Positions 3,458 through 21,242 of a stretch of 23,589 nt of DNA are shown one piece after another; positions within the stretch are counted from its first letter, which is position 1; every line of letters begins with the position of its first letter. The notes beneath the pieces are model-generated. The model ran no database searches, was not told the origin of the DNA, and worked only from the letters and a program-made list of their open reading frames with translations. Source of the stretch: a virus; IMG/VR virus record IMGVR_UViG_3300022538_000775, positions 1 through 23,589 of that record. The stretch is one strand, 5' to 3'. Position numbers and translations under genes: made by a program.

Positions 3458-3657
3458 ACTTTCCTCCTCAGCATCTCCTGCATATCCTTCGGCATCTCAT
3501 TGAATATCTTCTCCAGCATTGGACTCTCGAACTCAATCTTCCTCATCACCCTCTTCCTCGGAGTTCCCTTCTTCCTCCTCTTTTTCTTACTTTCCTCAAG
3601 AAGCTTTTCTCGCTTCTCTCGAAGATCATCAATGATGGAGGAGAATCTATTTAACAT
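3454..3657 (-). CDS. Lys/Arg-rich coiled-coil hypothetical protein
   Basis: A 67-residue, highly basic protein with heptad-like helices: DDLREKREKLLEESKKKRRKK, then MLEKIFNEMPKDMQEMLRR. It overlaps the preceding Tat-signal gene by 11 bases and lacks a clear ribosome site, so it is probably expressed by coupling. Its own end overlaps the ATG of the 42-codon gene. It could bind DNA or RNA or be a small structural helper; the sequence does not decide. Confidence 0.6.
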   Translation of the reverse strand: MLNRFSSIIDDLREKREKLLEESKKKRRKKGTPRKRVMRKIEFESPMLEKIFNEMPKDMQEMLRRKV

Positions 3658-3907
3658 GGCTATGATAGCTATTTCCCAGTATTACCCATCCCCAGCTTTC
3701 TTTTGATATATCTTCCATTGCAACGCCGATTGGAGAGTTACGGTATTGCCATTCGTAATCATCAATCAATGCTTGCATGGCCGTATCTCTCCTTCGCCTG
3801 ATGAGCCGTAGTAAGGCGTTGAATGAAAGATGCTTGGGCTTTGGTATCAGCGTCGATGGCGCTACTACAGCTAAGCAAGCTAATTTTAGGAAACTCCTGC
3901 GCTTCAT
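3647..3907 (-). CDS. Second small protein with Tat-type signal (RRSFLK)
   Basis: An 86-residue protein starting MKRRSFLKLACLAVVAP. The twin-arginine motif and hydrophobic run match the protein at 397-702 almost residue for residue over 17 positions, while the DNA differs by many synonymous changes. The mature part is unrelated: a basic helix (ALLRLIRRRRDTAMQALIDD) and an aromatic C-terminus. The ATG overlaps the TGA of the HEKSH gene. Conservation limited to the signal argues that export, or at least this N-terminus, is under selection. Function unknown. Confidence 0.7.
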   Translation of the reverse strand: MKRRSFLKLACLAVVAPSTLIPKPKHLSFNALLRLIRRRRDTAMQALIDDYEWQYRNSPIGVAMEDISKESWGWVILGNSYHSHVK

Positions 3908-4323
3908 TCCTCATCCTCCTTCACAAAATCTCTAAACGCCTTCGTCCTCATCAGCTTCCTCAACGCTGCAAGGTGTGCTCCATAAACCTCCGGCTGAGCA
4001 TTATACTTAACAAGCGCATCCTTCGCGTGCTTCAAATAAGCTCGCTTCAGCCTGACGCATCCAATAGCCCGAACCTTCTGAAGCTCTCCTCTCATCGCGT
4101 GATACTCACACCAGTAATCAGTCCCCTTGCTCCAGCATTTGCATCCTCCATCAAAGCACTCTTTATGACTTTTCTCATGTAAATAAACGCACTCCCTTGC
4201 TAGTAATCCAAGCCTCGAGCTAACGTAAATTTTACCATCATCCTCATCAAAGAACCCGAAAACCTTAGATGGATTTGGATTATAAACAAACAGAATACAG
4301 TTATCTCGATGCTCAAGTTTCAT
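3904..4323 (-). CDS. HEKSH zincin-like protein (gluzincin type)
   Basis: A 139-residue protein with H49-E50-x-x-H53 (CVYLHEKSHKEC), followed about 20 residues later by E73-Y-H-A-M-R-G-E. That order (HExxH, then E-x-x-A) is the gluzincin layout seen in ImmA/IrrE-type and related peptidases. A cysteine cluster between them (CFDGGCKCW) could bind a second metal or form disulfides. The C-terminal third is helical and basic. It is coupled by ATGA on both sides. The target is unknown. A non-catalytic member is possible because the loop between the zinc ligands is unusually Cys-rich. Confidence 0.7.
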   Translation of the reverse strand: MKLEHRDNCILFVYNPNPSKVFGFFDEDDGKIYVSSRLGLLARECVYLHEKSHKECFDGGCKCWSKGTDYWCEYHAMRGELQKVRAIGCVRLKRAYLKHAKDALVKYNAQPEVYGAHLAALRKLMRTKAFRDFVKEDEE

Positions 4324-4631: not shown

Positions 4632-4652
4632 AATCGTTCTCCTTTTTCCATC

Positions 4653-4671
4653 TATTTCACATTTTGAAATA
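4653..4671 (-). promoter_or_regulatory. 19-bp dyad element, copy 1
   Basis: TATTTCA-CATTT-TGAAATA on the + strand; read leftward it is followed by GATGG and then the AAGGAG of the gene at 4320-4631, 21 bases before its ATG. Perfect 7-bp arms with a 5-base spacer, the same geometry as the copies at 7458, 9325, 12591 and 19390. It could be an operator for a dimeric protein or an RNA hairpin in the leader. Confidence 0.7.
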
Positions 4672-4681
4672 CCTAATTAAA

Positions 4682-7440: not shown

Positions 7441-7457
7441 TTTTAGTTCCTTTCCTC

Positions 7458-7476
7458 TATTTCACATCTTGAAATA
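7458..7476 (-). promoter_or_regulatory. 19-bp dyad element, copy 2
   Basis: TATTTCA-CATCT-TGAAATA, perfect arms; leftward it continues GAGGAAAGGA, so the dyad abuts the ribosome site of the gene at 7162-7440. The flank AGG(TATTTCA) on the upstream side is shared with copies 1 and 5. Confidence 0.7.
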
Positions 7477-7493
7477 CCTAAAGAAAGCTGAGT

Positions 7494-7798: not shown

Positions 7799-7820
7799 AG
7801 CGTTTGGTTTGGTAATATAA

Positions 7821-7891
7821 TAGACGAGGCAGGACTCGAACCTGCAACTTTGCCCGATATGGCATGCTTTGACCTTATAAGCTACTCGTCT
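7821..7891 (-). tRNA. tRNA, anticodon uncertain
   Basis: Read leftward: acceptor AGACGAG/CTCGTCT (7 bp, perfect), TA at 8-9, D arm GCTT/AAGC with a GG-containing 9-base loop, T arm GCAGG-TTCGAGT-CCTGC, discriminator A, no encoded CCA. The anticodon stem TGCC/GGCA closes on only six bases (ATATCG) instead of seven, so the anticodon cannot be named safely and the molecule may be altered. Total length is 71 bases. It lies in the gap between two small leftward genes, as phage tRNAs often do. Confidence 0.72.
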
Positions 7892-7941
7892 ACCCTGTCC
7901 GGTATTATACTTACCGCTAACAGTTCTGTTTGCCGTCCTTC

Positions 7942-8791: not shown

Positions 8792-8893
8792 CTAACATCC
8801 TCTTATAATCAAGAAGATAATTATTAGCCATAGAAACATCCCTATGGTTATGGCTAACAGCGGGGGTCTCCATACTGGTTTTTGATATCTCAT
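8792..8893 (-). CDS. 33-residue single-span membrane peptide
   Basis: A very short gene with AAAGGA 7 bases before ATG. After MRYQKPVWRPP comes an unbroken hydrophobic run (LLAITIGMFLWLIIIFLII) ending RGC, so it is a single transmembrane segment with a basic N-terminus. It is the first gene on the left side of the origin candidate. Too short for family assignment; the ribosome site and clean frame support it. Confidence 0.55.
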   Translation of the reverse strand: MRYQKPVWRPPLLAITIGMFLWLIIIFLIIRGC

Positions 8894-8938
8894 TTTCTAA
8901 TCCTTTCAAATCAAGTTATAATTGTATCGAGAGTCCTC

Positions 8939-9306
8939 TATTTCACGTCTTTCAAACTCTCTCTAACGCCACCGGAACGCCGATAGCACCGTTTTTGGGT
9001 CAGAAACGGGGGTGTATCGTATCGATTCAATACACTTTTTGGGGGGTAGATAGGTAGTTAAAAGGTTCGTTAGTCATCTACCTAATAAAAGGAAGATTTC
9101 AGTTATCTACATATATAATATATATATTATATATATATATAAATACCTAACACTTGTTAATGCAAAATCCATAGCTACTCCCTATGCCCCCCCTTGAAAG
9201 TGTAGTGATTCGATACCATACCTTCCCAAAAAAGCCCCTTTTTAACCCAAAAACGACCCTATCGCCGTTTCTGGTGCGTGGCGAGAATTTCAAAACCCTT
9301 GAAATA
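8939..9306. repeat. Large imperfect inverted repeat (candidate replication origin)
   Basis: Left and right arms match in reverse complement: TATTTCA 8939-8945 with TGAAATA 9300-9306; CGCCGATAG 8978-8986 with CTATCGCCG 9259-9267 (8 of 9); GTTTTTGGGT 8991-9000 with ACCCAAAAAC 9245-9254. All three pairs share the midpoint 9122.5. Inside, GTATCGATTCAATACACTTT near 9018-9038 matches the reverse of 9197-9217 after a shift of 10 bases, and G6 faces C7. The midpoint coincides with a 24-bp AT palindrome. Known phage and plasmid origins often combine AT-rich melting DNA and dyads. The origin role is inference. Confidence 0.7.
9111..9134. repeat. 24-bp perfect AT palindrome at the repeat centre
   Basis: Only A and T, self-complementary over all 24 bases, centre at 9122.5. 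It is flanked on the right by a further TATATATA run to 9140. It could extrude as a cruciform or melt easily. Confidence 0.85.
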
Positions 9307-9324
9307 GATGACTATTAATCCCTC

Positions 9325-9343
9325 TATTTCAGAATGTGAAATA
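9325..9343 (+). promoter_or_regulatory. 19-bp dyad element, copy 3
   Basis: TATTTCA-GAATG-TGAAATA. The right half plus flank (TGAAATAGATGACTA) is repeated exactly at 9300-9314, so a full site and a half site stand side by side at the right edge of the origin candidate. It is the only copy not directly in front of a gene. Confidence 0.7.
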
Positions 9344-9366
9344 GATGACTAAGGCTCCCTTCCTTA

Positions 9367-9657
9367 TCACGCATCCCACCATCGAGAATCCATGACACAA
9401 GCAAGCATCTGTGACAGTCTTTCCTCCCGCCTGAGCTGCCCCCTCGCTCGCTTATTCCTCTCCTCATCCTCCATATACTCCGCATAAACTACGATTGCTT
9501 CGCAGAGAATCCTGACGATCCTGTCATATCCATCGTAGAAGTCCTGAGTATCCACGATGTTTGAGAGTTTCTCGTTATCAAAGATAACTCCCGCATCAAC
9601 GACCTTTGCTTTTGCTCTCACAATTTCCTTAATTATTTCCACGTTTGATTTGCTCAT
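9367..9657 (-). CDS. Hypothetical helical protein
   Basis: A 96-residue protein, AAAGGA 9 bases before ATG, ATG overlapping the TGA of the gene before it. Largely helical and charged: EIIKEIVRAKAKVVDAG, then DRIVRILCEAIVVYAEYMED and a basic stretch. It is the last gene before the origin candidate. It might be a small DNA- or protein-binding factor; nothing in the sequence proves this. Confidence 0.7.
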   Translation of the reverse strand: MSKSNVEIIKEIVRAKAKVVDAGVIFDNEKLSNIVDTQDFYDGYDRIVRILCEAIVVYAEYMEDEERNKRARGQLRREERLSQMLACVMDSRWWDA

Positions 9658-11956: not shown

Positions 11957-11985
11957 TTGCGCCCATCTCGATTTCTTGATATTAA
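11957..11985 (+). promoter_or_regulatory. Candidate sigma-70-type promoter
   Basis: TTGCGC (11957-11962), 17 bases, TATTAA (11980-11985), ending 24 bases before the DUF551 start codon. The -35 box is a fair match and the -10 box is moderate. It would drive the rightward block. Confidence 0.35.
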
Positions 11986-12584: not shown

Positions 12585-12590
12585 ATGAGC

Positions 12591-12609
12591 TATTTCATGT
12601 TTTGAAATA
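12591..12609 (+). promoter_or_regulatory. 19-bp dyad element, copy 4
   Basis: TATTTCA-TGTTT-TGAAATA, ending 8 bases before the TerS-candidate ATG, in the place where a Shine-Dalgarno site would be; none is seen there. If this dyad folds in mRNA or binds protein it would act directly on translation or transcription of the packaging block. Confidence 0.7.
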
Positions 12610-12617
12610 GATAAAAA

Positions 12618-17566: not shown

Positions 17567-17772
17567 TGGATAAGCATGATCGAACAATTCCGGAGCGATT
17601 AGCATCGATTGAGATGAAGCTTGATGTCATGTGTGAGAGAACCGCTGCGTTTGAGAAACTTATTCCTCAAATCATAGAAAACTCATGGTGGGTAGGAAAG
17701 ATTAAGTGGGGATGCGCGACGATTGCTATTGCAGGAGTAGTTGGAGGTATTGTTAAATACGCATGCAGTTAG
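17566..17772 (+). CDS. XhlA-like small membrane protein
   Basis: A 68-residue protein. An N-terminal amphipathic helix (PERLASIEMKLDVMCERTAA) is followed by a C-terminal membrane span (GCATIAIAGVVGGIVKYAC). This layout matches XhlA/hemolysin-type phage proteins, which act with holins in lysis. It overlaps TerL by 10 bases. A lytic enzyme gene is not in the window, so the assignment stays provisional. Confidence 0.6.
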   Translation: MDKHDRTIPERLASIEMKLDVMCERTAAFEKLIPQIIENSWWVGKIKWGCATIAIAGVVGGIVKYACS

Positions 17773-19385
17773 ATCTTGATACAATCGATAAGATGAGGAA
17801 GCAGGCTCGAGAGAATCTCTTCTTCTTTGCTCGCGCGATTCTTAAGTTCGGGGATCTCGATCCGGAGATTCATAAACCGATTTGTGATGAGCTTCAAGCA
17901 TTTCGAGAGAACACTCGGATGACTATTGAGCTTCCGCGAACATGGTTTAAGAGCTCTCTTGTCACCATTGCTTATTCTATTTGGAGAGCAATTAAAGATC
18001 CGAACATAAGAATCCTGATAGCTCAAAACACTCATGGGAACGCATGTAAAAAACTTAAAGCTATTGCGAGTGTTTTTGAGAAGAACGCTTTGTTTCGAGC
18101 ACTTTTTTACAATGTTCTTCCGGATAAAACTTGCAGATGGTCGAGTGAGTGTCTTGAGCTGAGGAGGACTCAAGCCCATCCGGAGGGAACGTTTGAGGCT
18201 GCTGGAGTAGGAACTGCTGTCGTTGGAAGGCATTTTGATCTTATTATTGAAGATGATACGATTGCACCTAAGAAGGATGATATGACAGGAATTGTCCAGC
18301 AGCCGACAAGATTGGATATCGAGAAAGCTATTGGCTATCATATCCTATGCCATCCGATGCTTATACATCCTACGGAGAGTCAGGTTATCATCGTAGGAAC
18401 TCGGTGGGCGGAGAGAGATTTGCTGGGATATATTTATGACAAGTTTCCTGAATATAAAAGCATGCGAAAAACGGCGTGCGAGAAGGATGGAGAATCCTGT
18501 ACGCTTCTTGAGGGAGGAACGCCAACGTGGGATCGGTTTAACGCTGACGTGCTGAGGGAGATCGAGCGACAGGAAGGGCCGTATATGTTTGCGTCTCTTT
18601 ATCTCGGAAAACCTACGGCGGCGATTAATCAGGTATTTAAGAGAGAGTGGATTCGGCATCGAGATCGCAAGCTAAAAGGTTCTTACACATGTACATCAGT
18701 TGACCTCGCGTCGGCGGAGAAAGAGGAGTCGTCTGATCCGGACTTTAATGTCATCATGACAACCGCGATTGAGCCGAAATCGGGGATTGTGACTGTTGAG
18801 GAATACACGAGAGCAAGGATGAGTCCAAGTGATGTGATTGATTGTATCTTTCAACATCACCTGAGGCATCATCCGGTTAAGATCCTTGTTGAGGCTATCG
18901 GATATCAGAGAACTCTTGTGCATTGGATTAAGAGACGCCAGAAGCGCCAAGGGCTTTTGTTTCTTATCGAAGAAATTCGAAGCCATGATCGAGCAAAGGT
19001 TGAGAGAATTCGAGGCCTGCAGCCGTATTTTGCTGCAAACTTAATACATATAAAGCCTGGGATGACAGAGCTTGAGCATGAACTCCTTGCTTTTCCGAAG
19101 GGAGCTCATGATGATATAATTGATACCCTCAGTATGCAGATAGCTTTCTGGGTTGAGATGACGGAGATGATTACCAAGTACAAACCGGAGAAGGTTATTG
19201 ATGAGTTCTCGGGAGCATCAGTTATTGAGGAACTTAAGAATAAGGTCAGTGCGATTAATCGATATCCCTGGGATACAGGGAATCTTGATGATTATTATCT
19301 CAACGAGGTCATTGGATCTAATGTGCTGAGGATGGAAGTCAGGGAGCGAGCTGAGGCTTATCGGAGAGAAGCGCTCTTTGTTTGA
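17763..19385 (+). CDS. Terminase large subunit
   Basis: A 540-residue protein. ATPase part: LPRTWFKSS at 57-65 is the (degenerate) Walker A, DLIIEDD at 159-165 the Walker B plus catalytic acid, and IIVGTRW at 209-215 the coupling motif. Nuclease part: SVDLAS (D314), VEAIG (E378) and GAHDDIID (D450/D451), as in RNase H-like terminases. TerL cuts concatemers and drives packaging with the portal. The P-loop lacks the usual G before K, as in other phage TerLs. It is followed by a dyad element. Confidence 0.93.
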   Translation: MQLDLDTIDKMRKQARENLFFFARAILKFGDLDPEIHKPICDELQAFRENTRMTIELPRTWFKSSLVTIAYSIWRAIKDPNIRILIAQNTHGNACKKLKAIASVFEKNALFRALFYNVLPDKTCRWSSECLELRRTQAHPEGTFEAAGVGTAVVGRHFDLIIEDDTIAPKKDDMTGIVQQPTRLDIEKAIGYHILCHPMLIHPTESQVIIVGTRWAERDLLGYIYDKFPEYKSMRKTACEKDGESCTLLEGGTPTWDRFNADVLREIERQEGPYMFASLYLGKPTAAINQVFKREWIRHRDRKLKGSYTCTSVDLASAEKEESSDPDFNVIMTTAIEPKSGIVTVEEYTRARMSPSDVIDCIFQHHLRHHPVKILVEAIGYQRTLVHWIKRRQKRQGLLFLIEEIRSHDRAKVERIRGLQPYFAANLIHIKPGMTELEHELLAFPKGAHDDIIDTLSMQIAFWVEMTEMITKYKPEKVIDEFSGASVIEELKNKVSAINRYPWDTGNLDDYYLNEVIGSNVLRMEVRERAEAYRREALFV

Positions 19386-19389
19386 GAGG

Positions 19390-19408
19390 TATTTCAGAAG
19401 TTGAAATA
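19390..19408 (+). promoter_or_regulatory. 19-bp dyad element, copy 5
   Basis: TATTTCA-GAAGT-TGAAATA, followed by GAGGAATAGAAAAG and the ATG at 19423. Perfect arms. It starts 4 bases after the TerL stop, so it could separate TerL from the portal/capsid genes as a control point. Confidence 0.7.
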
Positions 19409-19422
19409 GAGGAATAGAAAAG

Positions 19423-19557
19423 ATGTCTGTGAAAGGAAAAACAGTAAAGCATTGTCATGGTAAGGATAAAGGTAAGACGATCTCGAAGCATAAGACTCAT
19501 AAAGCTGCTGTGAAAAAGCATAAGGCGATAATGGCAAAAAAGAGGAATAAGCGCTGA
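19423..19557 (+). CDS. 44-residue Lys/His-rich basic protein
   Basis: A short gene starting MSVKGKTVKHCHGKDKGKT and ending IMAKKRNKR. Almost half the residues are Lys, His or Arg. It has GAGGA about 9 bases before ATG, directly after the dyad element, and its TGA overlaps the portal ATG. Such composition suits DNA or RNA binding, or neutralising packaged DNA. No family recognised; the ribosome site, frame and junction support it. Confidence 0.6.
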   Translation: MSVKGKTVKHCHGKDKGKTISKHKTHKAAVKKHKAIMAKKRNKR

Positions 19558-21242
19558 TGGCAAAGAAAATGTCCGCACAAGATTGGATGGCTGAGATCAG
19601 AAGAGGCCTCGCTTATCGGAAGATCTACGCGATGGAAGAAGCGTGGAGGAAGAACGAGCTGAATTATCTGAACGATCCAGCTTCTCACGCATCAAAAGGA
19701 CCGAACCTCGTGTTCGAGATGGGAGATACAATTCTCAGCGCAACGGGCTCTCTTGATCCCGAGTTCGTGATCACTCCGGAGCATCCAGCTGGAGTAACTC
19801 GAGGGCCGATTGTGGAGTCTGTAGATAATTATCTTGTGCGGAAGCTTAGGATGCGGAAATACGTGAATAGGAGTTCTCAGCATTCATATTTATATAATCG
19901 AGCTATTTTGAAGATTGGGTATGATAGTGAATTTGGATGGAGTCCAAGGCTTGATATTGGGAAGGGGGATCAGCCGCTTGGAATGTCAATGTCTCAATTC
20001 CATCCAAGAACGGGGAAGAGGATTGAGAACATGAATGTCACTCCTGGAATGCCTTGGGTTGGATCGGTTCTTCCGCATGATTTCGTCGTACCTTGGGGGA
20101 CGATTGATCTCGATGATGTTCCATGGGCGGCTCATAGGATTGTTCGGTTGAATGATGATATTAAGGCTGATAAGAAGTATATGAACACGAGGGAGCTGAA
20201 GCCTGATATGTCGATTGAGGATTTCGTTTATAGCTATCTTTATCCCGGAATCGAGAGGGTGAAGTTTACAGAGACGAGTAGAGGGCTTCATACAGGGAGA
20301 GAGAGACCTCAATCGATTTATAACGAGCTCTGGGAGATCCATTGTCGAAGAGATATGTCAGTTAAGGTTGTATGTAAGGATCATCTAAGGTTCTTGAGAG
20401 ATGAACCTGATGCTGTGATGCTCGCATGCGGAATGCCATTTGTGAGCGGAGCGTTTGTAGAGCATCCAAGGAGCTTCTGGGGAACGCCTCTTGCGTATTA
20501 TCTTGGGCAGTTGCAATCGGAATCTTATGATATAGCAAAGCAATCAGAAAAACAAAGAAGAATTAGTATTCTGAAATTCATTGCTGCTAAAGGGTTCATG
20601 GAGCCTGATGCTCTCCAAAAGCTCATAAGCGGCGATGTCGGAGCGGTTGAGTTCGCTGAGGTAATGGGAGACCTGAAGGATAAGATAATCCAAATGCCTG
20701 TTGGGCAGATTTATGATTTTATTATTCAAATGAATCAAGTCCGTCAGGATGCTCGGTCGATGATAGGAACATCGAGAAACCAAGCTGGAGAATTCGACGC
20801 CGGGACGCGGAGAACAAAGGGAGAAGCGATGCTGGTTGCTCAGGGATCCGCTCGCCGTCAGACTCCGAGAGTTGCAATGGTAAGGGATCTTTATCTTGAT
20901 GCGATTACGAAGTTGAATCAGGTAATATTCTCCTACTGGACATTTCCTCGTTCTGTGATGGTAGGGAGGGAATGGGTGAGGTTTACTGGAGAGGAGATTA
21001 AGGGAGATTATCTCTATGACATTACCCTTGCTCAGAAGAGGATTCTCAGCAAGGCAGAGAGAAAGGTTGAAGCGATGATGATGTTAGCTCAACTAATGCC
21101 ATTCTTGCAAGGGGCTGATCCGAATCAGGTATTTGAGTATCTCTCTAACGCAGCGAATGATCCATCTTTTGAGAGACTCCTTGGATTTGTTCGAGGAGGA
21201 GGAAAAGCTCAGGGAGGAGGCGGCGGTGAGTCCAATTTATGA
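19557..21242 (+). CDS. Portal protein
   Basis: A 561-residue protein between TerL and the scaffold/capsid genes. The N-terminus (WRKNELNYLNDP..., GPNLVFEMGDTILSATGSLD), a strand-rich clip (RAILKIGYDSEFGW) and a helical stretch near 390-450 with 'DARSMIGTSRNQAGEF' and 'RTKGEAMLVAQGSARRQTPR' match portal proteins of tailed phages. They form the dodecameric ring for DNA passage. Gly-rich tail. It starts by 1-base overlap with the basic protein gene. Confidence 0.88.
   Translation: MAKKMSAQDWMAEIRRGLAYRKIYAMEEAWRKNELNYLNDPASHASKGPNLVFEMGDTILSATGSLDPEFVITPEHPAGVTRGPIVESVDNYLVRKLRMRKYVNRSSQHSYLYNRAILKIGYDSEFGWSPRLDIGKGDQPLGMSMSQFHPRTGKRIENMNVTPGMPWVGSVLPHDFVVPWGTIDLDDVPWAAHRIVRLNDDIKADKKYMNTRELKPDMSIEDFVYSYLYPGIERVKFTETSRGLHTGRERPQSIYNELWEIHCRRDMSVKVVCKDHLRFLRDEPDAVMLACGMPFVSGAFVEHPRSFWGTPLAYYLGQLQSESYDIAKQSEKQRRISILKFIAAKGFMEPDALQKLISGDVGAVEFAEVMGDLKDKIIQMPVGQIYDFIIQMNQVRQDARSMIGTSRNQAGEFDAGTRRTKGEAMLVAQGSARRQTPRVAMVRDLYLDAITKLNQVIFSYWTFPRSVMVGREWVRFTGEEIKGDYLYDITLAQKRILSKAERKVEAMMMLAQLMPFLQGADPNQVFEYLSNAANDPSFERLLGFVRGGGKAQGGGGGESNL

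Follow-up and report, generated by a model that had tools for sequence, protein, structure and literature searches.

The primary origin of phage T7, a phage with a family A polymerase, is an AT-rich spacer in the early region. The tos site of phage N15 is a single imperfect palindrome in the middle of the virion genome (352 nt, 64% self-complementary). In herpes simplex virus (HSV) OriS, an AT-rich spacer is flanked on either side by initiator boxes in inverted orientation, and the arms can form a hairpin once unwound (PMC12543377). In the phage satellite PLE, RepA binds repeats in the origin, and replication depends on this repeat region (PMC7145576). For uncultured phages, the origin has seldom been identified, since its sequence changes too fast.

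The element described here is a long, AT-centered inverted repeat, and of the known systems HSV OriS comes nearest to it in logic. HSV OriS/OriL and the phage group have in common an AT-rich spacer between inverted boxes, which in the phages take the form of repeated words and occur in only part of the elements. However, the phage arms are far longer (up to ~200 nt) and 60-72% complementary, virus and host are unrelated, and the likeness is one of DNA layout: OriS and OriL are used with the origin-binding helicase UL9, and no such helicase was recognized for the phage element. As in the iteron origins of plasmids and PLE, a noncoding region holds short repeated words next to an AT-rich stretch. 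In the phage elements, however, the repeats on the two sides of the AT center point toward each other and lie within long complementary arms, 8 of 23 elements pass our repeat test, and no RepA-like initiator was recognized. The likeness to T7 consists of an AT-rich spacer in the early region and, in one relative, a family A polymerase (PolA), but T7 has no such palindrome by the same scan, and the proteins checked in this phage group included no phage RNA polymerase.

The sequence studied, hereafter the window, is the complete IMG/VR virus record IMGVR_UViG_3300022538_000775 (23,589 bases). It has no nucleotide similarity to known phages, and a host search found no terminase relatives in bacterial or archaeal genomes. 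The gene layout is that of a tailed phage: the early genes, which are small and point leftward, extend to ~11.5 kb, and the late genes point rightward from ~12 kb onward and include those for the terminase large subunit (TerL; 17763-19385) and a portal-like protein (19557-21242). The window also carries a tRNA-like gene (7820-7892, minus strand; Rfam tRNA score of 51 bits) with an unusual anticodon that ARAGORN could not assign, and two early proteins (397-717 and 3647-3907, both minus strand) share a signal-peptide-like motif near the N terminus, MKRRSFLKL, and then diverge. The element occupies the spacer between two leftward early genes, bounded by positions 8893 and 9367. The gene on its right (9367-9657, minus strand; 96 aa, without a family match) is transcribed toward it, and a small ORF with a ribosome-binding site (8792-8893, minus strand; 33 aa, hydrophobic) starts just to its left. 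A close-relative search with two early genes near the element gave no homologue. The ORF list of the window contains no ORF of at least 60 aa inside the element, in agreement with an earlier note on this DNA, according to which no gene lies there.

The same note had described a symmetric structure of 368 bp. The symmetry is real, and larger than claimed: in a comparison of the window with its own reverse complement (self-blastn, minus strand), positions 8904-9341 form an imperfect palindrome of 438 nt with 64.5% identity (142 bits, E = 7e-35), which we consider a candidate replication origin. The word pairs on which the claim was built, namely TATTTCA (8939-8945) with TGAAATA (9300-9306), CGCCGATAG (8978-8986) with CTATCGCCG (9259-9267; one mismatch) and GTTTTTGGGT (8991-9000) with ACCCAAAAAC (9245-9254), are in place, and all have the midpoint, 9122.5, of a perfect 24-bp palindrome at 9111-9134. 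Opposing G6 and C7 tracts are also present, and they are offset because the arms carry insertions and deletions. Over blocks of 45 nt, complementarity reaches 76% in the outer arms (8966-9010 with 9235-9279) and 78% in the inner arms (9014-9058 with 9177-9221). The AT-rich center (9103-9150), a candidate DNA-unwinding element, includes the perfect palindrome, and positions 9111-9150 are the most AT-rich 40-mer in the 23.6-kb record.

The folding and self-comparison suggested by the earlier note thus gave strong folds and a single 438-nt palindrome. Relative to dinucleotide shuffles, RNA folding of the element has z-scores of -11.5 (plus strand) and -9.0 (minus strand), and DNA folding has a z-score of -8.7. 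We also implemented an arm test, in which the most AT-rich 40-mer of a record is located and the complementarity of its 230-nt flanking arms, with the central 36 nt excluded, is compared with that of dinucleotide shuffles. The window element has an arm z-score of 20.6, and none of 67 random viral contigs (739 kb) exceeded 5. Similarly, 983 kb of random IMG/VR contigs contained no palindrome reaching both 150 nt and 65 bits. The long, AT-centered imperfect inverted repeat is therefore confirmed as a structure. A chimeric assembly was considered and rejected, because the arms are only 60-72% alike and because independent samples, as well as one genome that is circular and complete, show the same layout.

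Relatives were collected as ~70 related contigs from two terminase searches. An AT island with complementary arms (z >5) is present in 11 of the 14 loci that have at least 6 kb upstream of TerL (L013, L024, L031, L035, L037, L040, L042, L048, L060, L061 and L065; in L024, at the second-ranked AT island of the record), and was not detected at this threshold in the other three (L047, L070 and L076). Where TerL identity is at least 44%, all eight loci have the element. Further examples were found in two shorter contigs (L011 and L016), in the longer records of G001, G005 and G013, and in MW202554, a complete circular 44-kb phage genome in GenBank (35772-36018; z of 27). An annotated hypothetical protein of the latter (L238, 35682-35993) spans the palindrome and is probably a spurious ORF. 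Five additional loci that contain the region have TerL proteins 65-69% identical to that of MW202554, and in all five the distance from the region to the terminase downstream of it is 1.0-1.3 kb, which matches the placement in MW202554. Three of these (L246, L250 and L251) are positive in the arm test, one (L245) contains a long palindrome that lacks an AT center, and one (L248) gives a weak arm signal (z of 2.6).

More than 15 related phages thus have a common layout at a similar position with quite different letters. The position is on the early side of the early/late divergence, and in one subclade ~1.0-1.3 kb from TerL. Most records contain a single copy; L016 has a second long palindrome (3868-4033; 166 nt) in a divergent spacer, without an AT-only center. 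The comparison with relatives that the earlier note had suggested therefore shows conservation of the layout but not of the arm sequences. Alignment of the arms fails from one genome to another, and blastn matches occur only in the AT-rich apex. For example, L016 and G001 have an identical 22-nt apex and unrelated arms; an IMG/VR scan with this apex word gave no additional genome. Likewise, the MW202554 region has no blastn match in loci with the same element position. Homologous small genes lie directly 3' of the element in L016, L011 and L206, and another gene pair, homologous by eye, follows it in G001 and G011.

Such stable folds could also belong to a structured RNA, that is, a transcribed long hairpin that serves as an RNase III site or as an antisense or decoy RNA and whose pairing is maintained while its letters can change. 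In keeping with this, G.T mismatches outnumber A.C mismatches on the TerL-sense strand across 13 elements after adjustment for composition (CMH z of 2.75), and two left-arm changes between G005 and G006 preserve G.U pairs on that strand. However, the early genes around the element run on the strand opposite to the favored one; any such RNA would therefore not be the leftward mRNA, and the window itself has no strand preference (6:12 versus 7:12). A hairpin in the leftward mRNA was accordingly set aside: G.U-type mismatches are in excess on the opposite strand, and in the window neither strand has an excess. An RNA read from that opposite strand is a possibility. The element has no match in Rfam, promoter and terminator signals at its ends are not above chance, and an RNA would need neither an AT-only center nor convergent repeats. 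Homologues in which covariation or compensatory changes between the arms might show are either near-identical (G005 and G006 only) or have arms that cannot be aligned. Overall, we consider an RNA role doubtful.

The earlier note had also proposed that the arm ends act as protein half-sites. This idea has partial support from one word inside the arms: TTTTTGGG occurs twice in the left arm (8992-8999 and 9036-9043, plus strand) and twice in the right arm (9225-9232 and 9246-9253, minus strand), and nowhere else in the record (P = 0.017 for the 2+2 arrangement). These copies are candidate initiator sites facing the center. Other elements have center-facing repeats of their own, with left and right copies numbering 3+4 for TTCTACA (L246), 2+5 for TTTCTAC (L248), 4+2 for GCCGTTT (L251), 4+3 for ATTATGG (L060) and 3+3 for TTATGGA (L225); the elements of L246 and L248 have the repeated word TTTCTACA in common. 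Such words are absent, or nearly so, from the remainder of each locus. At least 2+2 convergent words are found in 8 of the 23 elements, compared with a mean of 0.19 and a maximum of 2 in simulations that keep composition and arm identity; the other 15 have no convergent repeats by this strict test. The unequal copy numbers of the two arms suggest that the repeats are binding sites rather than mere mirror copies.

The half-site proposal fares differently for the outermost pair, TATTTCA/TGAAATA, which belongs to a dispersed operator family that is also sited at other genes. The half-sites are CTATTTCA (8938-8945, plus strand) and TGAAATAG (9300-9307, minus strand), and the full operator-like 21-bp palindrome, CTATTTCA-N5-TGAAATAG, occurs at 4652-4672, 7457-7477, 9324-9344, 12590-12610 and 19389-19409. 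The copy at 9324-9344, CTATTTCAGAATGTGAAATAG, lies at the right edge of the element. Most of these sites are just upstream of gene starts. On both strands of the window, the family has 11 matches, compared with 0.02 expected, and variants such as CTTTTTCA-N5-TGAAAAAG are present in relatives. A phage regulator may therefore also touch the element. These bracketing operator sites, and the location of the elements near the early/late divergence, would suit a transcription control region in which paired operators and promoters govern the early genes through DNA looping. However, complementarity runs along whole arms (up to 200 nt each), further than operators would require, promoter-like sites are no more frequent than expected by chance, and the element is often located within the early operon and not where the operon begins. 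We thus regard a control region as unlikely.

Other short words were also examined. Beside the AT center, TTATCTACA (9103-9111, plus strand) matches 8 of the 9 letters of the DnaA box TTATCCACA, which is a weak site. Two of the five perfect DnaA boxes in 345 kb are located at elements (0.08 expected); these boxes are in two elements only, and most elements have none. The T7-primase-like word GGGTC is mildly raised in the elements (9 versus 4). Post hoc enrichments were seen for ACCTA (23 versus 6.6 expected) and for runs of at least five G or C (17 versus 3.4 expected from the genomes).

Template switching makes quasi-palindromes, and the elements could in principle be neutral relics of inverted duplications that arose in this way in AT-rich spacers and then decayed. 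Arms that are ~60-72% alike with many transversions, and the turnover of arms between relatives, would be expected of such decay. However, the element is present in most relatives at a kept position and absent from controls, and the unequal word copies of the two arms (3+4, 2+5 and 4+2) require more than decay, which makes a relic improbable. A telomere-resolution site as in N15, where hairpin ends result from cleavage of the palindrome by protelomerase, is highly improbable: the N15 cut-site region is the closest shape match found (96.8 bits in the same scan), but tos adjoins a protelomerase gene and the AT-rich peak of N15 is not at the palindrome center, protelomerase (PF16684) is absent from 15 family records, some of them fragments but including the complete MW202554, in a search that detected N15 as positive control, and L016 has two long palindromes.

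A phage replication origin is the best explanation of the element, a plausible and moderately probable reading, if unproven. The earlier note's claim that replication starts here stands in part. The AT-rich dyad, the inverted site arrays, the mostly single copy, the kept position and the recurrence in most relatives fit an origin, as does a single AT-rich island that has inverted arrays on its flanks and is placed close to where the early operon begins. Against it, GC skew in the window makes no turn at the element; its minimum is at 11,969, 2.8 kb away, and the skew tracks gene direction. In L227 and G020, the element is in a divergent spacer with the GC-skew minimum beside it, an arrangement confounded by gene direction. 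Where gene direction is constant, third-position skew drops from 0.40 to 0.23 to the right of the window element, the direction predicted for a bidirectional origin; when pooled, this signal is weak (z of 2.4, or 1.5 without the window). Also counting against an origin are the 15 elements without convergent repeats, the lack of a DnaA box in most elements and the second long palindrome of L016, and no initiator gene was recognized.

In favor of an origin, the full-length relative G011 encodes replication-type proteins, namely a DUF3987 primase/helicase-like protein, a family A polymerase and a Sak4-like protein; it also encodes a ribonucleotide reductase. Under the origin reading, a fast-evolving phage initiator would bind the convergent repeats on both arms, and its complexes would bend the DNA and melt the AT center. 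The freed strands could then fold back through the complementary arms, which would keep AT loops single-stranded on both strands. The primase/helicase of the phage might then load onto these loops together with its family A polymerase; alternatively, host DnaB might do so through a phage loader. Arm letters would drift with the initiator, and the layout would be retained; the constancy of the layout in turn predicts that the initiator evolves quickly. A more specific and tentative version is that the origin is encoded by structure, so that the fold is kept and not the letters. In this version, an AT bubble would be surrounded by arms extruded from both strands, which would present hairpins to a phage initiator or primase, and each member would have its own arm sequence. 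If the fold is what counts, bacteriophages would have in this element an equivalent of the logic behind herpesvirus OriS. Across the whole phage group, the layout has two computable marks, namely the most AT-rich spot and the center of a long inverted repeat, and therefore offers a sequence-independent way to find candidate origins.

Some additional features of the relatives were noted. The family of small early genes that adjoins the element in L016, L011 and L206 is also present in a 252-kb phage contig (L235, 5965-6207), and no such long element was found in the 12 kb of that contig that was seen. Small palindromic words such as TTGCGCYAGCAA are repeated beside the element in L206 and L231, and these near-identical genomes differ there by insertions and deletions. 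In-frame intein-like inserts are present in two TerL genes, one within an 802-aa ORF (L013, 7846-10254) and one matched in two pieces (L067, 1305-3629).
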